DNA of 64,000 bases. It comes from Algoriphagus limi (GTDB lineage: Bacteria; Bacteroidota; Bacteroidia; Cytophagales; Cyclobacteriaceae). The stretch covers positions 1,620,296 through 1,684,295 of the forward strand of contig NZ_JANWGH010000001.1 of NCBI RefSeq assembly GCF_024919275.1, given 5' to 3'. The translations under genes and the position numbers were made by a program. This document shows, piece after piece, positions 9,607-18,410 of this stretch. How positions within the stretch are numbered: position 1 is the first letter of the stretch; the number at the start of each line of letters is the position of its first letter. A model generated the notes under the pieces. It saw nothing but the letters and a program-made list of their open reading frames with translations, was not told where the DNA came from and did not search any database.

Positions 9607-9680
9607 TCCTCCTTAGCTCAGCTGGTTAGAGCACATGACTGTTAATCATGGGGTCCTTGGTTCGAGCCCAAGAGGGGGAG
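9607..9680 (+). tRNA. tRNA-Asn (anticodon GTT)
   Basis: All arms fold. Acceptor TCCTCCT (9607-9613) pairs with AGGGGGA (9673-9679). The D arm is GCTC/GAGC, the anticodon arm CATGA/TCATG encloses CTGTTAA with anticodon GTT, and the T arm CTTGG/CCAAG encloses TTCGAGC. The discriminator is G at 9680 and CCA is not encoded. A consensus promoter precedes it and a strong terminator follows 10 bases later. The 3' end (AGGGGGAGC) recurs in degenerate copies at 20.2, 23.0 and 28.5 kb. Confidence 0.95.
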
Positions 9681-9941
9681 CAAAACAAGAAAGAGGTCAT
9701 TTTGACCTCTTTTTTTGTTTTAAATCCAACTCAACTTCATTTAAATGAAGACTTTTAGGGTTGCAACTTTTTATGAACCCTTCTTCAAATAAACTAGCCA
9801 AAAGAACATAATAGGATCTTATTGATTTTAAAAACCACATATAATTCAAGGATTGAATGGGATTTTATAGTTTTTCTTCATTTTCGAAAAGAATTATATT
9901 GAAAAATCCCAAGACGGAAGATTCCATAGGTCAAAGATTTA
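9681..9941. other. Non-coding stretch after tRNA-Asn
   Basis: Apart from the terminator this stretch contains the palindrome GTTGCAAC (9760-9767), about 50 bases behind the terminator. The same octamer sits at the same distance behind the terminators of the copies at 20.3 and 23.1 kb. No gene is visible. It is the left flank of the accessory region. Confidence 0.5.
9691..9720 (+). terminator. Terminator of tRNA-Asn
   Basis: The stem AAGAGGTCA / TGACCTCTT with loop TTT is followed by a run of T. The same stem recurs almost unchanged behind the repeats at 20.26 and 23.03 kb. Confidence 0.85.
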
Positions 9942-11780
9942 TCAATCTGGTAGTCTACTTATTTCTTTCTTTAACTGAACTATGGAGGCGGAATCAAATG
10001 GAAATCTAGCTATTCTGAAGGAAAGCGAAATTTGTTCTACTTTTTTAAAGTAATTGGGAATAATGATATTAGATAAGTATCCTAAATAATCGAAATCATT
10101 AGTTCCTAAAAGATTTTTCCGATTTTCCTGAAATAGATTTTTGTTTTCTAAAGATTCATCAAAATACTGAAAAGAGTCTGAAAGAAATCCTATTTCATGA
10201 CTGGAAATGATATTTTTCGTTTGCGAACTTTCTCCACCAAAGCAATTATTTTCCTGTAATGACAAATTAAAAACCCCAACTTTTTGATTCGTTTTATAAT
10301 AAGATTGATCTCCTGACCAACCAATCTTATTGGAAATAAGATTAAGTTGTTTAGTCCCCTCTCCAATGTAAACTCCAGCTTCAAGGTTTCCACTTATAAA
10401 ATTATTGCAAATCGAATTATTAGATGAATAACCCTGCCTAACCTCTTTATTAATACGAATTCCGAAAGAATTTGGAATAGCATTCTTCCCTGAAATATCT
10501 GTACCTATTTTATTCCCAAAGATTAGGTTTTCAAAAGAATCCATTAAAATTAGACCATTTTGAAAATTACCTGAAATCAAATTTGATTCAGCTGGATGAA
10601 GACCTCCAATTATTGTTCCTCCAGAATTTCGTAATACAATTCCGTTTTTATTTCCCAAGGAAAACTCTCCAGAAATATCTGTCCCAATTAGATTACCTTT
10701 AATTTTAATATCTGAAAATCGATCTCTGACTGCATTTAGGTTAGAAACGGATTTGTTTTTCGAATCCACCATAATCCCCACCTCGTTCCCAGAAATCAAA
10801 TTTCCGAGATTTTCATCTCCAATAGAGATACGTGATGAGGATGAGTCTATAAGAATTCCTACCAAATTTCCGTTAACCTTGGTCCCAGAATAATCTGTAC
10901 CAATCTTATTTTGGAGAATTGTATTTCCAACTCCCTGAACTTCTAAGCCAATTGTATTTCCTGAAATTAGATTTCGGAAAACAAAATTATTTTCACTGGG
11001 AAACCCAAAATAAACGGCAATGATATTTCCTTTCTTTTCATTCCTATCAGGGAGGACCCCGAAAAAATTCCCGTTTACTTTATTTGAATTCCCAGTTATA
11101 CATGAAACACCAGTATAATTTCCTAAAAAGTAATTTGCTTCTTTTTCTAAATCTCCACCTATCAAATTTTCATTCCCCCACAAAGAAACCCCTGCTCCAT
11201 TACCTTTTTTTGGATTGTCTTCCAATGATCCAAAAATGTTATTCTGAATAACAGAATGATCGGATTCGACTTTTATTGCCATGTTTCTAAATGACTGGAA
11301 AATCAATCCATTAATAACACTTCCACTACTTTTTTCTCGTAGTAGGAACCCTGTTTGTGCCTCAGGAATATTACGATGTCTTTCCAAATCAAACTCAATA
11401 TTTGCCCCATCTATCACGATTCCCTTTTCCAAATCAATTTTACTTTCATTAACTGTCCCATAAATTTCGACAGGATATAAAATAGCAGGAAGGTAAGACT
11501 GTAGTACAATTCTTTTGGATCTAATGTCTTTAAGGTCAAAAATTACTTTATCACGCAATTTTGAAGCATTGGCATTTTGAAGGGCTGCTCTTAGCGTACA
11601 GTTACCCTTAAGATCAGCACAGATCTTATCCGACAAATCCACATCTTCTAAATCCTCTACGCTATTTACAATGTAGGTGCGTTGGGCAAAATCTATATCC
11701 TGAAAACTAAAAAATAGCGTAAAGAGTAGAAGAAGCCACCATGAATTTTTTTGAGCAGGAAAGGCTTGACTATTATCCAT
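9942..11780 (-). CDS. Exported right-handed parallel beta-helix (NosD-like) protein
   Basis: A 612-residue protein with an N-terminal hydrophobic export signal (WWLLLLFTLFFSFQDIDFAQ). A CSLREAI-like opening (GNCTLRAALQNANA, about 60) is followed by many turns of a beta-helix marked by NLISGN, GNKIGTD and NGI/VGI repeats through residue 520. This matches NosD/pectate-lyase-like parallel beta-helix domains used for carbohydrate or surface binding. No catalytic triad of a known lyase is visible. The gene starts 5 bases after the sensor kinase stop, so kinase and helix protein form one operon. No type IX secretion tail was recognised; final location outer surface or periplasm is inferred. Its DNA is noticeably A+T rich. 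Confidence 0.75.
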   Translation of the reverse strand: MDNSQAFPAQKNSWWLLLLFTLFFSFQDIDFAQRTYIVNSVEDLEDVDLSDKICADLKGNCTLRAALQNANASKLRDKVIFDLKDIRSKRIVLQSYLPAILYPVEIYGTVNESKIDLEKGIVIDGANIEFDLERHRNIPEAQTGFLLREKSSGSVINGLIFQSFRNMAIKVESDHSVIQNNIFGSLEDNPKKGNGAGVSLWGNENLIGGDLEKEANYFLGNYTGVSCITGNSNKVNGNFFGVLPDRNEKKGNIIAVYFGFPSENNFVFRNLISGNTIGLEVQGVGNTILQNKIGTDYSGTKVNGNLVGILIDSSSSRISIGDENLGNLISGNEVGIMVDSKNKSVSNLNAVRDRFSDIKIKGNLIGTDISGEFSLGNKNGIVLRNSGGTIIGGLHPAESNLISGNFQNGLILMDSFENLIFGNKIGTDISGKNAIPNSFGIRINKEVRQGYSSNNSICNNFISGNLEAGVYIGEGTKQLNLISNKIGWSGDQSYYKTNQKVGVFNLSLQENNCFGGESSQTKNIISSHEIGFLSDSFQYFDESLENKNLFQENRKNLLGTNDFDYLGYLSNIIIPNYFKKVEQISLSFRIARFPFDSASIVQLKKEISRLPD

Positions 11781-11785
11781 CCTCT

Positions 11786-14700
11786 TTAATTAAAAGCCCA
11801 AAAACTTGCAATCTTCTGAAGACCATTAGACCAAAAATCCTTGAGGATCAGATTCTTGTCTAATGCAATGGATATTTTAACCTCTGTTCCTTTTGAAGGT
11901 GAGGATTCCAAAGTTATTGATCCATTATATTTCTCAACTCTGTACCTTAGAATATTCATTCCATTTCTTTCTGAAGAGGAATCTGGATTAAACCCTATTC
12001 CATCATCTCTTACGTGGATGTTGAGAGAACGCTGCTCATAAAAGACTTTGACCTCTACTTTTCTTGCTTCTGAATGCTTTCTGACATTATTGATCAATTC
12101 TTTCAAAATCAGATAAATATCCTTTCGCTTGGATAGAGATAGGGTCGCCTGACTAGTAGAATCGGGCATGGCAATTTGATAACTAATAGTAGTCTGATCT
12201 AAAGATTCGCTTATATATCTCCTCAACCTTGAAAAATACTCTCCTAAATCATCCTCCTTCATTTTGATATTCCCGACTAATTCATGAAGGGCTTCGGAAG
12301 AATCATGAATTTCCTGATCAATATTCGATAACATCATTTCTATTTCTGGTTGACCCTGAAACTTATTCTTATGGATAGCCGAGATTAATTGAATTGTTGT
12401 CAACCTTGCTCCAATATCATCGTGAAGATCCGCGGATATCTCTTCTTTTACTCGTTGTAAACTGAGCAAATGCTTAATCTTCATCCTGTAATACCAATAA
12501 AAAATCGAAATTATAGTCAAGACTACCAATACCTTAAACCAAGTAGTCTGCCAAAAAGAAGCATGAATAATTACTGGTAAGGTTTTAATTGGCGCACCTT
12601 CAAAATTATCATTGGTTAGTTTGATCTTAAATAAATAAGTTCCTGGATCAAGATTCGTGTATGATGCATACCTTCTATTTCGAGCCTGAACCCAATTCTC
12701 ATCATATCCTTCCAACTGGTAGCTGTAATGAAGGTTATCGGGAACATTCTTTGAAATCGCGGAAAAGAAGAACTCCAAAGAATTCTCTTTACTTGAAAGT
12801 TCCAGTTCATCCATGTAGTGAATAAGGCCAATACTACTTTCTACCTGCTGACTATTTACTTTTATATCAGATATTAAGATTTTGGACTGATAATCATCCC
12901 AAGAATAATTCTCCCCCTCCAAACAAAGGATACCTTTTTCAGAGGAAAAGCAAATTTTCCCATCCTTTCGTTTATAAGAAAGACCAGGTAAAAATTCATT
13001 GATAAGAATCCCATTTTTATGGTTTAGATATAGGATTTCTTCAATACCAATTTCAGAATTGGACTTTATGAAATTTAATTTAAAAAACCCATTATGAGTA
13101 CTACACCAAACAGTGCGCGTATCTTCAAATTCCATCCCCATGATAAAATCATTGGGAAGCCCATCTTCACTGGTCACGTTTACTACTTTGCCATTTTCAA
13201 GATTTACCAGAATTAGACCATTTCCTAAAGAGCCCAACCAAAGCCAATTATTTTGGTAATTCATCGATTGAATATCCAAGTCTATTGGGATCACTTTAGT
13301 TAAAAAATCCTTTTGTTCAAGTCTCCCTTCAGAAAAATCATAAAATCCAATGCTTCCATTTGAAAAATAAATTGCCGCTTCATTTTCATTAATTGAGCAG
13401 AACTGAGAAACTGAATAATCCACAACCTGAAAAAATTCCTGCCTAATTAGGTCCAGTTTAAAAAGCCCCAATTTATTTCCGAATAGTATACTCCCAGGGA
13501 ATGCCTTTGACTCATAGATAAGAGTACTTTCGTGACTGAGATCATGATTCCTTATAAACTCATCGGACGACTTCTGTAAAGGATGTGAAACTTGATTTAC
13601 GGGATCAAATACTAAACTTCCATTTTTCAATGAATTTATAAAAAATCGATCTCCACCTTGAATGGGAACTATAGAATTTATTTCAGGCTCATCTGCCTCT
13701 TTGAAAAAATCATACCTCCCAAATATCCCTTTAGGTGTTAATTCCTGATCATAAATTAAAATTTCATCATTTTGAGGGATGTAAATTGAGCTCTGATCCC
13801 CACTAGTTTTAAGTTGCAATTTCCCATCAAACCTTATTTCTTCTGGCCAATTTGTCGTTACTAGAGGTATACTAGGATCCAGAGAGTAAAGTCCATTTTT
13901 TCTTGTGCCAACCCATATTTTACCATTCTTTGCCCCATAAATGCAGTAGACATCCTTCGGGTTTTTCTCTAACTTGACTTGGAAAGCATGATTATTCATT
14001 TCGTCTATTACCATCAATCCTTCACCTAGAGTTGCAAGCCAAATCCCCCATTGGTAGGTAGAGAATTTTCTTTCATAAAATATTTGAAATACGTGCAATT
14101 CAGTCAAAAAATTCTTCAAATCAGAGAAAGCTGAATATTCCTGATAAATAGAATCATCAGAATATTTTTGAGTCCAAATTCCAGCTGAAATTGAGGAAAG
14201 ATCTACCCCGGCACTATTCTCAATGCCATGAGTGAAATTTATATCCAATAAGTATTGAGATACTACTCCCAGTTTTATTTGATTTACTCCTTTGTCTGTA
14301 AGTACCCAAAGGCCATCTTCTTTATTTTTAAAAATATGGTTGACCCGGTTAGAACTAAGATTTTGTTTAGTACATTCGTCATAATGACTTATCAATTTGA
14401 GATCCAGATCTGTTATAAATAATCCCCGATCATCTGTTCCTAGGTAAATTCTATTTTGATCAATAAAAATTGAGGTAAGTTTCACAATTTCTCTTTCTCC
14501 ATCTTTGAAATACTTTAAGGGATGGGATTTCTCTGTTAGAAGATCCATGTATTCCAGTTTGCCACCCTTTGTGATCATCCAAAGTTTATCACCTTCAACA
14601 TAAAGCTTCCCTAGGTTAAAAGCTGAATCATTCACTTGAAAATCAAAAGACTTTCGAAAGACTTTAAAATTATCCCCATCAAAACGGGTCAAAAAGTTGG

Positions 14701-14875
14701 GGCTTGCTATCCATAAAAAGCCAATTTCATCTTCTACAATATCCAAGACAGTATTTTCGGGTAAACCTTGTTCGATGGAGTAGTTATTCATTAAAAATTC
14801 TACTTCATCTTGAGCAAATGCCTTATCACAGAAAAATAAAATGAGGCAATATATAAGTATGAAAGTATATTTCAT
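11786..14875 (-). CDS. Membrane sensor histidine kinase with Reg_prop beta-propeller and Y_Y_Y domain
   Basis: A 1029-residue protein. After a signal peptide (ending FCDKAFAQ) comes a large periplasmic propeller of Reg_prop-like repeats (VLDIVEDEIGFLWIAS, GRIWVGT-like units), then a Y_Y_Y domain (LHYSYQLEGYDENWVQARNR) around 700-780 and one membrane helix (VLVVLTIISIFYWYY). The cytoplasmic kinase is of the HisKA_3/NarX-LytS type with phospho-acceptor His in ADLHDDIGARLT, N box LILKELINNVRKHSEA, and DDGIGF and GMNILRYR ATP-binding motifs. It has no receiver or DNA-binding domain, so it needs a separate regulator; the NarL-type regulator at 17722-18357 is the obvious partner. A terminator separates it from the upstream gene. 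Confidence 0.9.
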   Translation of the reverse strand: MKYTFILIYCLILFFCDKAFAQDEVEFLMNNYSIEQGLPENTVLDIVEDEIGFLWIASPNFLTRFDGDNFKVFRKSFDFQVNDSAFNLGKLYVEGDKLWMITKGGKLEYMDLLTEKSHPLKYFKDGEREIVKLTSIFIDQNRIYLGTDDRGLFITDLDLKLISHYDECTKQNLSSNRVNHIFKNKEDGLWVLTDKGVNQIKLGVVSQYLLDINFTHGIENSAGVDLSSISAGIWTQKYSDDSIYQEYSAFSDLKNFLTELHVFQIFYERKFSTYQWGIWLATLGEGLMVIDEMNNHAFQVKLEKNPKDVYCIYGAKNGKIWVGTRKNGLYSLDPSIPLVTTNWPEEIRFDGKLQLKTSGDQSSIYIPQNDEILIYDQELTPKGIFGRYDFFKEADEPEINSIVPIQGGDRFFINSLKNGSLVFDPVNQVSHPLQKSSDEFIRNHDLSHESTLIYESKAFPGSILFGNKLGLFKLDLIRQEFFQVVDYSVSQFCSINENEAAIYFSNGSIGFYDFSEGRLEQKDFLTKVIPIDLDIQSMNYQNNWLWLGSLGNGLILVNLENGKVVNVTSEDGLPNDFIMGMEFEDTRTVWCSTHNGFFKLNFIKSNSEIGIEEILYLNHKNGILINEFLPGLSYKRKDGKICFSSEKGILCLEGENYSWDDYQSKILISDIKVNSQQVESSIGLIHYMDELELSSKENSLEFFFSAISKNVPDNLHYSYQLEGYDENWVQARNRRYASYTNLDPGTYLFKIKLTNDNFEGAPIKTLPVIIHASFWQTTWFKVLVVLTIISIFYWYYRMKIKHLLSLQRVKEEISADLHDDIGARLTTIQLISAIHKNKFQGQPEIEMMLSNIDQEIHDSSEALHELVGNIKMKEDDLGEYFSRLRRYISESLDQTTISYQIAMPDSTSQATLSLSKRKDIYLILKELINNVRKHSEARKVEVKVFYEQRSLNIHVRDDGIGFNPDSSSERNGMNILRYRVEKYNGSITLESSPSKGTEVKISIALDKNLILKDFWSNGLQKIASFWAFN

Positions 14876-14947
14876 TCCTACTCACTAATTACACAAAAAT
14901 ATAAACAAACAATCTGAAAGCATCGCACAAATGGCTGAATGGAAATA

Positions 14948-14981
14948 AAAAAGCTGCTCTTAATAATGAGCAGCCTTTTTT
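14948..14981 (-). terminator. Terminator after subtilase-like gene
   Basis: The stem GCTGCTC (14953-14959) / GAGCAGC (14968-14974) is followed by a T run when read on the minus strand. It separates the subtilase-like gene from the sensor kinase gene. Confidence 0.75.
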
Positions 14982-14995
14982 CAACTAAACTTCAA

Positions 14996-16648
14996 TCAAA
15001 AGGTCAGTGTCACCTCATTTGAACATTGGTTTGTCCCTGAAATACAGATCTTATAACTTTTAGGCGCCAAATTTCTTCCAGAAATGAATCGAACCCAAAA
15101 TCCATCGCCTATTAAGTATCCATCATCTGTTGAGGCTATTTTTAATCCATTCTCATAAATATCCACTGTCCCACTTTCATTTTTAATGGGTTGCCAATTA
15201 AGAAGAATTTGATATTCATTCCTTTTCATTGGACTGACTTTTCCAGTTATATCCAATACATAATTTACCCGATTAGGGTCAATGCTTCCAGTTCCATCCA
15301 TGCTCATTCCACTATAGAGCATATGATTATTTACCGAATTAGAAAAGCTCACCACATTCTTGGTGGATGTGTTTTTGAGAAATTGATAGACTTCAGTTGG
15401 TGAAGCCATAGGATTATTTTCCAAAAATTTGGCGGCCACACCTGCAGCCACTCCAGCTGCAACAAAATTCGGATTCATATTAAATCCATCTCTCCATATC
15501 TCTACGTATCCTCCATTTGTCTCGGACCAATCGGTGGTCGTGGTAAACAAGTCTATGCAATCACCATAATTACTTGATATTTGTTTTCTGTCCTCTATGG
15601 TGGCCAATCCCACGGTGAATATGTAGGGTTTATAAGAACTTGCCCAGGTACAAGCATTTTCTCGCCAAGCTCCTGAACTTGATATTAGGGAAAAACCTGC
15701 ATTATACAAGTTCTCAATTACTGTAAAATATGCTGTATTTTCCAAAGGCCCTACTAGACCTACTAGAACAATACCAGGCCTCTGACCATTTGCCAGAATC
15801 CAATCATATGCAGCTAATAAGGAAGACAAGTAACCTATTTCATCACAACAAGTATCATTTGTCCTAACTCCAACCAAATTCACTCCTTTGGCAGGGCCAT
15901 AGGATGTTCCCCCGACATTCAATGCCATATTGGTTGTAGATCCATTAAGATCCTCCCCTTCACCTATCAGATCAATAGTGACTGCCCTATTCTCAAACTC
16001 TTCTGGCATATCCCAAATTCCTCCAACAGGAATATAGGCTGTTACCCCGCTTCCTGTCTCGTTGTAGGTGTAAGTACCGCTGAATGGTAATTGGCGTTGA
16101 TCTATTCTATCCAGATATTTGGGAGCATCAATTTGAATAGTCCCCCCAGTTCCTGGATCGGAAGGTTCGCCACCACCATCCCCTCCTCCATCATCACCTG
16201 GTTGATCTTTTCCAGGAGGGGTTTTTCTTTGGTTATAATAACTGATTTCATGATCTGGTTCAATGGATTTTACTTTCGGATCTTTGCGTATTACTTCAAA
16301 TTCTTCCTCCGTTAAATCCAGCGTAAACCCAGTTAAAGCATGTCCGTAAACGGACTTAATTTTATCAGAGTCAACATCATATCGTACCAGGATATCATTT
16401 GCGATTTTCCGCATTCCAGCCTGTACATCCTCATATTTATCGGATTTTCGGAAATTGATTTCATTGCTGTTTAAAGTCACGATGTACCTTCCCGGCACCA
16501 CATTGGATGTATTCTCTCCCAATTTGGATAGAGTATCCAATTTAGGCTCCATTTGGCCACTATCTTCGCAGGAGACAGCAAAAAGTAATAAAATAAGACT
16601 CCCTAAAAAGGGACTTAGCCTGCTTTTGTTATTCCCTAATCGTATCAT
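14996..16648 (-). CDS. Subtilase-like lipoprotein with I9 prodomain, catalytic residues lost (pseudoprotease)
   Basis: The start at MIRLGNNKSR (16648) gives 550 residues and a proper lipoprotein signal (LLLFAVSC, Cys27); a longer start lacks support. An I9-type prodomain spans about 50-135 (PGRYIVTLNS, VYGHALTGFTLDLTEEEF, VKSIEPDHEI). A Gly/Asp/Pro linker (143-170) leads to a proteinase K-like S8 domain (LDRIDQRQLP, GSGVTAY, GVNLVGVR, SSNYGDCIDLF). A C-terminal FnIII-like domain ends YKICISGTNQCSNEVTLTF. Aligned by eye to aqualysin/proteinase K, the catalytic Asp is Val208, His is Asn240, oxyanion Asn is Ala327 and Ser is Phe395. The frame is intact. It is therefore probably a binding or scaffold protein, not a protease. 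A palindrome lies about 110 bases upstream. Confidence 0.85.
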   Translation of the reverse strand: MIRLGNNKSRLSPFLGSLILLLFAVSCEDSGQMEPKLDTLSKLGENTSNVVPGRYIVTLNSNEINFRKSDKYEDVQAGMRKIANDILVRYDVDSDKIKSVYGHALTGFTLDLTEEEFEVIRKDPKVKSIEPDHEISYYNQRKTPPGKDQPGDDGGGDGGGEPSDPGTGGTIQIDAPKYLDRIDQRQLPFSGTYTYNETGSGVTAYIPVGGIWDMPEEFENRAVTIDLIGEGEDLNGSTTNMALNVGGTSYGPAKGVNLVGVRTNDTCCDEIGYLSSLLAAYDWILANGQRPGIVLVGLVGPLENTAYFTVIENLYNAGFSLISSSGAWRENACTWASSYKPYIFTVGLATIEDRKQISSNYGDCIDLFTTTTDWSETNGGYVEIWRDGFNMNPNFVAAGVAAGVAAKFLENNPMASPTEVYQFLKNTSTKNVVSFSNSVNNHMLYSGMSMDGTGSIDPNRVNYVLDITGKVSPMKRNEYQILLNWQPIKNESGTVDIYENGLKIASTDDGYLIGDGFWVRFISGRNLAPKSYKICISGTNQCSNEVTLTF

Positions 16649-16756
16649 TTTTGAATAGTTTGATATGAAATACCTTATATAATGAATCATGAAATGAGGA
16701 ATGCAAATGCATTTCAACAAAATCGTCATTAAAACTACTCCAATTGGAAGTGTCAG

Positions 16757-16780
16757 AAAATCACCTTTTTAGGTGATTTT
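16757..16780. promoter_or_regulatory. Candidate operator, palindrome copy 1
   Basis: Perfect arms AAAATCACCT and AGGTGATTTT flank TTTT. It lies upstream of the subtilase-like gene and is separate from the terminator of the preceding FISUMP gene. Near-identical palindromes lie upstream of the FISUMP and response-regulator genes. Confidence 0.6.
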
Positions 16781-16803
16781 ATTAATATCATTAAATAAAA
16801 AAA

Positions 16804-16825
16804 GCATCAGAGAAATCTCTGATGC
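16804..16825 (-). terminator. Terminator after FISUMP gene
   Basis: The stem GCATCAGAGA / TCTCTGATGC with a two-base loop (AA) is followed on the minus strand by seven T. It ends the FISUMP transcription unit. Confidence 0.85.
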
Positions 16826-16900
16826 CTAAAGAACTAATCGCTAAAAAGTCTATCTATTATTTATTGAATTATTTCCTTCTTGAAAAATGTCTTCTACCAG

Positions 16901-17617
16901 CTACTCTTGAATGCACTTAATGTAAGCTCCTGAATTAAGCATATACCTTTGACTCCCTTTCAACATTGAATATTGTACATTTTTCCCAGTGTATCTTTCA
17001 ACCATGAAAGCAAATGGATTCTCTAAAACTTGACGATTTTGAGGCCGGATCCATTTAACCGAAAAATCTATTAGAACCTCATCACCATTCATTGTTAAAT
17101 TCCTTTTATTTAAAAATCCTCCATCGAACTTGCGCTCACCCCCTAATAGTCCTTCAAGACTCATCCATTGAGGAACTATAGGATATTGCCCTGCATCAAA
17201 TAACCCTCCAAAATAATCAACTACAGCAACCAATTCATTTTCAGAAGGCAAGCGCCAATCTTCGGGACAAATTTCACAACAGTTGACTAAATACCCATTA
17301 TAGATTTTTCCATACGTTTCATCGTTGGCTGGATCATTTTCAAACCAAGTGTATGCTCCATAGGATATTTTAGACCATTCTTCTGGATCCTCAACTTTAG
17401 GTATAGGAGTGCCATCTCTAAACCTACTAACCCGTAAGTCCTGACGCAGCCATTTTTTCCCGAGAAGTGTTAAGACCTCATATTCATTTCCATCAATATC
17501 TTTTACGATTTCAATGGGCTCCTCCTCAATTATAGTTTCATCATCGGAAATACAAGAAACAATTAACCCCACTGCGAATAAAAGAAGGAGAAACTTTCTC
17601 AGTTTATTAAAGTCCAT
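16901..17617 (-). CDS. FISUMP-domain lipoprotein
   Basis: The start at MDFNKLRKFLLLLFAVGLIVSC (17617) yields 238 residues with a lipoprotein signal (lipobox LIVSC). The body fits the Fibrobacter succinogenes major paralogous domain: DGNEYEVLTLLGKKWLRQDL, RDGTPIPKVEDPEEW, GAYTWFENDPAND, YGKIYNGYLVN, CPEDWRLPSENEL. These domains occur in exported proteins of Bacteroidota and Fibrobacteres; their function is not established. Acidic residues directly after the lipid Cys (CISDDETIIEEE) suggest surface or outer-membrane sorting (inference). It carries a candidate operator about 75 bases upstream of the start and its own terminator, so it is a single-gene unit within the accessory block. Confidence 0.8.
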   Translation of the reverse strand: MDFNKLRKFLLLLFAVGLIVSCISDDETIIEEEPIEIVKDIDGNEYEVLTLLGKKWLRQDLRVSRFRDGTPIPKVEDPEEWSKISYGAYTWFENDPANDETYGKIYNGYLVNCCEICPEDWRLPSENELVAVVDYFGGLFDAGQYPIVPQWMSLEGLLGGERKFDGGFLNKRNLTMNGDEVLIDFSVKWIRPQNRQVLENPFAFMVERYTGKNVQYSMLKGSQRYMLNSGAYIKCIQE

Positions 17618-17676
17618 GGTTGAAAGATTTTGTGATTCACTTTTTAACCATAAACTTAAAATGAAACTCAAGCTCG

Positions 17677-17702
17677 AAAAATCACCTTTTTAGGTGATTT
17701 TT
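17677..17702. promoter_or_regulatory. Candidate operator, palindrome copy 2
   Basis: Arms AAAAATCACCT and AGGTGATTTTT flank a TTT centre, the same sequence as copy 1 with longer arms. It lies 60-85 bases before the FISUMP start and behind the response-regulator stop. A weak terminator role for the upstream gene is possible, but copies 1 and 3 are not placed as terminators. Confidence 0.6.
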
Positions 17703-17721: not shown

Positions 17722-18357
17722 TTAAAGGATAATCCTTTCCTCAAGGACTTTTGCAATGGCTTCCTTCCCACAATTGACATGAAGTTTTGTGTAAATGTTT
17801 TTCAGGTGGGATTTGCAGGTATCGTAAGACACAAAAAGTTCAGATGCGATGTACTTGATGCTATAGCCTTTGATCAAAAGTTTAAGAACTTCAATTTCTC
17901 TGGGAGTTAAATTATAGCGCAAAACTTGATTAGGGCTTTTATGAAAAGTTGCGAGAACCTTCTTTGCTATTGTCGGTGAAAGGGGTGCTCCTCCTTCTCT
18001 CACTTCCTTTAAGGCTTGAAAAAGTAATATTGGGGATGTTTTTTTTAAGATATATCCATCGGCTCCTGCACATAGACTATCAAAAATTTTATCATCATCC
18101 TCAAATTGCGTATATATCACTATGGAGATTTTTGGATCAATTTCTTTTATCTGAGGAATTGCAGTAATTCCGCTTTTTACAGGCATATCTATATCCAAAA
18201 TAACAACATCTGGCCTCAAATTTTCTATTTGCTCCTTTGCGTTTAAAACATTGGAAAAGCCAGCTAGTACTTGGTATTCTCCGCTATTATTAATAAGTAC
18301 CTCAAGGGAATCCCTTAAGTTTTCATTATCCTCAAAAATCACGATGGAAATTGGCAT
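17722..18357 (-). CDS. NarL/FixJ-type response regulator
   Basis: A 211-residue two-component regulator. The receiver domain (1-120) has acidic pocket residues FEDNE, phospho-acceptor Asp55 in VVILDIDMP, and the conserved Thr and Lys in IVIYTQF and GYILKKTSP. The C-terminal LuxR-type helix-turn-helix (about 145-205) reads LTPREIEVLKLLIKGYSIKYIASELFVS, then HLKNIYTKLHV. No kinase is adjacent; the only kinase of matching class in the window is the HisKA_3 protein at 11786-14875. A near copy of the candidate operator lies 35-55 bases upstream of its start, suggesting autoregulation (inference). It is transcribed towards the FISUMP and subtilase-like genes. Confidence 0.9.
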   Translation of the reverse strand: MPISIVIFEDNENLRDSLEVLINNSGEYQVLAGFSNVLNAKEQIENLRPDVVILDIDMPVKSGITAIPQIKEIDPKISIVIYTQFEDDDKIFDSLCAGADGYILKKTSPILLFQALKEVREGGAPLSPTIAKKVLATFHKSPNQVLRYNLTPREIEVLKLLIKGYSIKYIASELFVSYDTCKSHLKNIYTKLHVNCGKEAIAKVLEERIIL

Positions 18358-18390: not shown

Positions 18391-18410
18391 AATCACCTAT
18401 TTGGGTGATT
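18391..18410. promoter_or_regulatory. Candidate operator, palindrome copy 3
   Basis: AATCACC and GGTGATT arms flank TATTTG. It lies 34-53 bases before the response-regulator start, in a divergent intergenic region where no terminator is expected. Confidence 0.6.

Follow-up and report, generated by a model that had tools for sequence, protein, structure and literature searches.

A subtilase-fold lipoprotein without catalytic residues beside a two-component system in Algoriphagus limi

The window analyzed here is a stretch of 64,000 nucleotides from Algoriphagus limi, and all positions are counted from its first letter. It contains a minus-strand gene for a subtilase-like lipoprotein (pseudo-subtilase) in a cluster with the following features, the palindromes and the tRNA gene being given without strand.

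9607-9681: tRNA-Asn gene, flanking the kinase/pseudo-subtilase cluster
9942-11780, minus: secreted repeat protein, beta-helix-like by eye, no Pfam match
11786-14875, minus: sensor histidine kinase with Reg_prop repeats, Y_Y_Y and HATPase_c (Pfam), HisKA_3 just under the cut-off
14947-14980, minus: terminator-like hairpin after the pseudo-subtilase gene (hairpin scan)
14996-16648, minus: pseudo-subtilase lipoprotein, 550 aa (ORF, Pfam, phmmer, AlphaFold2 model, fold match)
15464-15466, minus: codon of Phe395, catalytic Ser position (33-row alignment)
15668-15670, minus: codon of Ala327, oxyanion Asn position (33-row alignment)
15938-15940, minus: codon of Ser237, catalytic His position (33-row alignment)
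16025-16027, minus: codon of Val208, catalytic Asp position (33-row alignment)
16759-16778: palindrome AATCACCTAAAAAGGTGATT, putative operator upstream of the pseudo-subtilase gene (motif scan)
16802-16827, minus: terminator-like hairpin between the FISUMP and pseudo-subtilase genes (hairpin scan)
16901-17671, minus: lipoprotein with a Fib_succ_major (FISUMP) domain (Pfam, 1.4e-14)
17680-17699: identical palindrome upstream of the FISUMP lipoprotein gene (motif scan)
17722-18357, minus: response regulator with receiver and LuxR-type HTH (Pfam)
18391-18410: palindrome with one mismatch upstream of the response-regulator gene (motif scan)

The pseudo-subtilase gene (14996-16648) consists of 550 codons without a stop, and an alternative upstream start at 16729 would give a protein of 577 aa. 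A signal with Cys27, which we take to be of the lipoprotein type, begins at start 16648. It is followed by an Inhibitor_I9 prodomain (residues 54-135; 40.5 bits versus a Pfam cut-off of 21.2), an acidic/Gly linker (∼138-168) modelled with low confidence, a subtilase domain (∼170-450) and a beta-rich tail (∼460-550). The Peptidase_S8 score is under the Pfam cut-off (16.4 versus 21.8 bits). The intact frame, signal and prodomain listed in a preliminary description of this DNA are therefore real. The same description named the tail as fibronectin type III-like; it is indeed beta-rich, with seven strands at residues 467-548 in an AlphaFold2 model, but a Pfam search of the tail gave no match, and the fibronectin identity is not confirmed.

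As assessed by phmmer, the best matches among solved structures are the keratinase chain 5wsl (1.8e-40) and aqualysin-1 (4.2e-40), and proteinase K is matched more weakly. The AlphaFold2 model (mean pLDDT 76, pTM 0.77; input alignment of 33 rows) predicts that the subtilase fold is kept, with detail at the altered site uncertain because the input alignment consists mostly of active relatives. Residues 170-448 of the model superpose on aqualysin I (4dzt) with Z 35.5 and rmsd 1.8 over 264 aligned residues (VIA-align). The unprocessed pro-subtilisin 3whi matches residues 52-451, prodomain included (Z 33.1, rmsd 2.9), and PCSK9 is matched with Z 32.5. By sequence and fold the window protein belongs to the proteinase K branch of the Peptidase S8 fold. 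Its closest solved relatives on both counts, aqualysin I and the Meiothermus keratinase, are active, secreted enzymes and not lipoproteins.

The Asp-His-Ser triad and the oxyanion Asn of an active S8 peptidase are absent from the window protein. The phmmer alignments and a 33-row alignment concur in placing Val208 at the Asp, Ser237 at the His, Ala327 at the oxyanion Asn and Phe395 at the Ser position. This agrees with the preliminary description, which had claimed a subtilase-like lipoprotein with all four positions replaced and had named Val208, Ala327 and Phe395 correctly; its choice of Asn240 for the His was wrong, since Asn240 lines up with the second His of HGTH. Sequence alignment and the overall fold match, the two means used to look for a triad preserved at other places of the fold, gave no sign of one. 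By comparison, D, H, N and S are all present in the 22 active relatives of the 33-row alignment (22/22) and in the 26 active rows of a wider 39-row set (26/26), from which the 33-row alignment omitted two pseudo-subtilase fragments and four active rows. They are also present in 26 of 27 subtilase relatives from the window's genus and order, the 27th having D, H and N and ending before the Ser. Among 100 positions that are near-invariant in the 22 active relatives, the window protein keeps 7/19 at the catalytic motifs versus 53/81 elsewhere (p 0.036). The same bias of loss toward the catalytic motifs reaches p < 0.05, uncorrected, in eight of nine pseudo-subtilase rows and is not significant in the Indibacter row (p 0.13).

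At least 12 pseudo-subtilase genes, of which three are interrupted or truncated, occur across four genera of Cyclobacteriaceae, in five genomes. The window genome carries one, Cecembia lonarensis LW9 three, Mongoliibacter ruber DSM 27929 three, a Mongoliibacter MAG three and Indibacter alkaliphilus LW1, whose source is a haloalkaline lake (PMC3715674), two. The three defective copies are the type-C gene of M. ruber (types are defined below), interrupted by an in-frame TAG, the second Indibacter gene, which is split, and the type-A gene of the MAG, which is truncated by the end of its contig. These genes come from a family search of 390 genomes with up to three candidates scored per genome. A class-wide search of 395 genomes (E ≤ 1e-40, up to three candidates per genome) gave no further members; in both searches residues were read for part of the matches, so that further dead copies may have been missed. 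A scan of genome contigs and viral contigs with the single protein returned no relative, and a scan of genome contigs with the type-A alignment led to four named hosts. Within its genus the window gene is present in 1 of 72 genomes, and the twelve matches that rank next in that search are active enzymes as judged by their residues (12/12).

The closest relatives of the window protein are 52-57% identical to it and, contrary to what would be expected of one inactive copy among active orthologues, they are dead too. We distinguished three types. The four full type-A sequences (window, M. ruber, Cecembia and Indibacter) all carry N-P-N-F in the Ser motif, and their oxyanion motif reads G-A-W, so that the oxyanion Asn is Ala and the Ser is Phe in 4/4; their Asp positions are V, P, Y and V, and their His positions S, T, S and V. 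In type B (three genes) all four catalytic residues are gone. In type C (three genes) His and Ser are gone in 3/3, Asn is kept in 3/3 by alignment and Asp is kept in 2/3. Read from the sequences, types A and B have lost the catalytic residues completely and type C has lost them in part. The nine full-length pseudo-subtilases form one branch with a support of 100/99 in a tree that omitted two fragments, and for which the program warned of long branches and of unusual composition in the three type-B rows. The preliminary description had called for orthologues with the same replacements, and type A in three other genera lacks the same residues; a lone mutant is thereby ruled out.

Forty residues that active relatives rarely have are fixed throughout type A, and 20 of the 40 fall within residues 321-399, a stretch that makes up 76 of 500 eligible positions (p 5e-8, the stretch having been picked after viewing the residues). 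They include A327-W328, W335, W374 and N-P-N-F395. Because these type-A-specific residues cluster in 321-399 and the losses concentrate at the catalytic motifs, the sequences suggest that the cleft has been rebuilt in type A. The Asn, Glu, Trp and Phe residues that are fixed in the region of the former oxyanion and Ser motifs could also be taken as a new catalytic site built from other residues on the same fold. We regard such a cryptic enzyme as highly improbable: across the four full type-A sequences the Asp and His positions vary (V/P/Y/V and S/T/S/V), and the Asn and Ser positions are Ala and Phe in all.

Other members of the pseudo-subtilase family evolve under purifying selection. dN/dS is 0.161 (95% 0.099-0.239) for the type-A pair of M. 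ruber and the MAG over 282 codons, 0.132 (95% 0.093-0.184) for the type-C pair of the MAG and M. ruber over 382 codons, the M. ruber copy being the one that carries a TAG, and 0.147 (95% 0.094-0.202) for the type-C pair of Cecembia and the MAG over 553 codons. Over the 105 codons of the subtilase part of the type-A pair it is 0.077. Most other pairs were left out as dS was saturated or near-saturated. The selection estimate proposed in the preliminary description thus yields values well below 1 in three family pairs and applies to relatives of the window gene, whose own best relative, at 57% identity, is too distant. A relic, i.e. a decaying protease gene still open by chance, would account for the presence in 1/72 genus genomes and for the broken copies elsewhere, and the distance of the window gene itself from any relative leaves it some room. 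It is the explanation we hold least probable: relatives in other genera lack the residues as well, dN/dS is 0.13-0.16 in the three pairs, which makes decay unlikely for those family members, the frame is intact and the gene has a palindrome of its own. The pseudoenzyme was described beforehand as maintained, and this is supported by the type-A relatives in three other genera, the low dN/dS in three family pairs and the intact frame.

The 20-base palindrome AATCACCTaaaaAGGTGATT has three sites at up to one mismatch in the 3.77-Mb genome, all in this cluster. A further 33 genome sites have two or three mismatches, versus 14 in all for a reversed-pattern control. The window's kinase gene has no palindrome site upstream. 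One palindrome upstream of regulator and target genes is the arrangement of an autoregulated LuxR-type two-component system, and being common to the subtilase and regulator genes it makes the link to the kinase and regulator stronger than had been proposed. What may not hold is the single unit into which the preliminary description placed these genes: the neighbours are real, but the hairpins and the palindrome suggest separate transcription. Terminator-like sites number 16 in the region versus 5.9 in shuffles, and the FISUMP and pseudo-subtilase genes both end in such hairpins; sigma-70 promoter matches are at chance level (32 versus 34.8). As hairpins bracket the pseudo-subtilase gene and a palindrome of its own precedes it, the sequence suggests that it is its own transcription unit.

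Seventeen loci of the genus carry a homologous kinase gene, and 13 related kinase-regulator loci among them were treated as one group. AATCACATnnnnATGTGATT-like palindromes precede most kinase genes and many regulator genes of these pairs, and by eye a sigma-factor-like gene adjoins the regulator in several of the genus kinase-regulator loci. At up to 4/16 mismatches the window's motif lies upstream of 10/13 kinase and 6/13 regulator genes versus 3.6% of random spans; at up to three mismatches the figures are 3/13 and 4/13 versus 1.1%. We had also widened the motif on the same genus loci after viewing their sites, which makes the following counts partly circular and is why they were repeated with the window's motif: at up to four mismatches it precedes 12/13 kinase and 11/13 regulator genes versus 7.5% of random spans, and at up to two mismatches it has 19 sites in 238 kb versus 0.6 expected. 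At the latter threshold there are no sites in 340 kb around active subtilases, in the remaining 4/17 kinase loci or in six distant loci of other genera, and at up to four mismatches the window's motif is found upstream of neither kinase nor regulator in those four. Two Cecembia contigs have two sites at two mismatches in 30 kb, with none expected. This footprint ties the palindrome, as a putative operator, to the LuxR-type regulator class.

Parts of the cluster recur in other genera. The window regulator is 76% identical to a Cecembia copy (90% in the HTH part). Its identity is 60-62% with three regulators of further genera in the family, and 40-46% with the four of its own genus that were compared. 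Homologues of the secreted repeat protein on Cecembia contigs are 36-44% identical. One Cecembia contig reads, in transcription order, kinase, beta-helix-like gene, regulator, pseudo-subtilase of type B and two FISUMP genes, and then a next set with kinase, beta-helix-like gene, pseudo-subtilase of type A and part of a further kinase. The subtilase-FISUMP neighbours are found again in Cecembia and in Indibacter, where the copy is of type A. In M. ruber (types B and C) and the MAG (type C) the nearby regulator is only 30-32% identical, and the type-A genes of M. ruber and Indibacter have no such regulator within ∼9 kb. Control by this two-component system is therefore not universal for type A. 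Six more distant kinase-regulator loci have a FISUMP-domain protein near one and a beta-helix-like protein near one.

These neighbourhoods bear on which way the signal would run. The pseudo-subtilase might be an input to the kinase, binding a peptide or cell-surface signal and contacting the periplasmic propeller, with the palindromes providing positive feedback. The kinase adjoins a pseudo-subtilase in the window and on two Cecembia contigs, and in Cecembia several kinases lie beside several pseudo-subtilases. Between the window and Cecembia the propeller has diverged further than the kinase core (40% versus 60% identity), as might be seen in matched sensor pairs, though this is common, and relay of a signal by such proteins has a precedent in the CspC:CspA pair (PMC12880746). 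Yet the palindrome marks the pseudo-subtilase as a downstream target, homologous kinase genes have no subtilase match nearby at 17/17 genus loci and at the six more distant loci (6/6, one on a contig of 4.5 kb), and type A in M. ruber and Indibacter lacks this kinase nearby. We therefore consider the input role unlikely, although worth keeping in mind. Since the palindrome precedes the pseudo-subtilase gene, the sequence makes an output, i.e. a binding lipoprotein, more likely than a kinase input.

Horizontal transfer of the cluster appears likely from its sequence context because it is present in 1/72 genus genomes, the Cecembia regulator is the nearest to its own of all regulators compared and a tRNA-Asn gene lies beside it. 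This tRNA-Asn gene is a possible insertion site of the cluster. By GC content the cluster is not clearly set apart.

Taken together, we favor the view, to which we assign a probability of roughly 0.6, that the window protein is a maintained, catalytically dead lipoprotein of the proteinase K branch of S8, which is induced by the two-component system, stays unprocessed and works by binding, not cutting. We infer its ligand, location and role, for which last the preliminary description had proposed sensing, inhibition or binding, as follows. When triggered, the propeller-sensor kinase would act on the regulator, which would induce its own gene together with those of the FISUMP lipoprotein and the pseudo-subtilase. 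The prodomain would stay on as a lid, because the catalytic residues for self-cleavage are missing. The former substrate cleft, with A327-W328, W335, W374 and N-P-N-F395, would then bind a peptide or other ligand, possibly jointly with the FISUMP protein, whose own model is poor (mean pLDDT 55.5). The variable proteins predicted for diversity-generating retroelements have been reported to include Fib_succ_major domains (PMC4159848), which would fit a binding role for the FISUMP partner.

The well-kept I9 domain also raises the idea of an inhibitor or decoy, in which the prodomain, attached to an inactive subtilase, would block a related active protease or a subtilisin of foreign origin. Potential targets exist in the window genome, which has an active-type relative with D, H, N and S (G000:C2) and a second relative with the motifs by eye. 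In an unprocessed protein, however, the model suggests that the prodomain is occupied by its own subtilase domain, and the subtilase part is constrained at least as strongly as the whole (0.077 over 105 codons of the type-A pair), which use of the prodomain only would not need. These points make an inhibitor quite improbable, and binding by the subtilase part remains our preferred reading.

Among known proteins the closest parallels are CspC and CspA of Clostridioides difficile, which like the window protein combine a bacterial subtilase fold with a degenerate site, and which act in signalling (PMC6636752, PMC12880746). The CspC prodomain is described as unprocessed owing to the triad substitutions (PMC6636752), and the CspC:CspA pair as relaying germinant signals (PMC12880746). 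On this analogy, we expect the window protein to remain unprocessed and to function through binding. CspC is reported to have G485, T170 and D105 at the triad places, the Asp being kept, whereas the window protein lacks the Asp too. As described, the Csp proteins have a jelly-roll insertion and a spore function; the window protein has instead a lipoprotein-type signal, a beta-rich C terminus and a two-component system nearby. Its predicted fold has no room for a jelly-roll insert of ∼130 residues, as 264 of the 279 residues at 170-448 align with the 276-residue chain of aqualysin I, the protein used for this comparison. Proteinase K-type chains top both the sequence and the fold match lists of the window protein.

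PCSK9 belongs to the same proteinase K branch and is described as acting non-catalytically with its prodomain bound (PMC13276728, PMC8551645). It still self-cleaves once, in these accounts, whereas the window protein lacks the residues for that. PIMMS2 of Plasmodium is a described subtilisin-like pseudoenzyme with a signal peptide and a transmembrane domain (PMC5520436); it is eukaryotic and of other architecture, and P. berghei PIMMS2 is reported to keep the triad residues without the surrounding motifs (PMC5520436). Among the open-licence papers listed in our literature searches there was no pseudo-subtilase from Bacteroidota, and the bacterial subtilase-fold pseudoproteases among them were the Csp proteins of Clostridioides and one relative. 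Bacterial pseudo-subtilases were thus already known (CspA, CspC), and what is new here is the palindrome before the subtilase, FISUMP and regulator genes.

The window adds a second, unrelated setting for a subtilase-fold pseudoprotease. Because a regulator, a putative operator and active relatives occur in the same genome, the change from protease to binding protein becomes directly testable. To our knowledge, the targets of propeller-type two-component systems are mostly unknown, and the footprint defines a putative operator for a class of such systems in Cyclobacteriaceae. A broader and more speculative view, which we put forward as a long shot, is that some Cyclobacteriaceae possess a transferable, expanding recognition system, in which dead subtilases, FISUMP proteins, beta-helix-like proteins and propeller kinases co-duplicate and diverge as matched surface receptors under one self-amplifying regulator. 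If so, the protease fold would serve as a variable binding module.

Two further observations concern the relatives of the cluster. A lipoprotein gene of Cecembia (L179, 3069-4139) without a subtilase match encodes nearly the same signal as the pseudo-subtilases, and its upstream 20-mer is that of one pseudo-subtilase; promoters and signals seem to have been copied between family members. The immediate neighbours of an active subtilase gene in Indibacter are a FISUMP gene and a regulator gene of a different type, with a trpS-like gene (by eye) close by. The dead types B and C of M. ruber adjoin a regulator similar to the one in Indibacter, together with a trpS-like gene (by eye), and active and dead subtilases may therefore have replaced each other at one locus.
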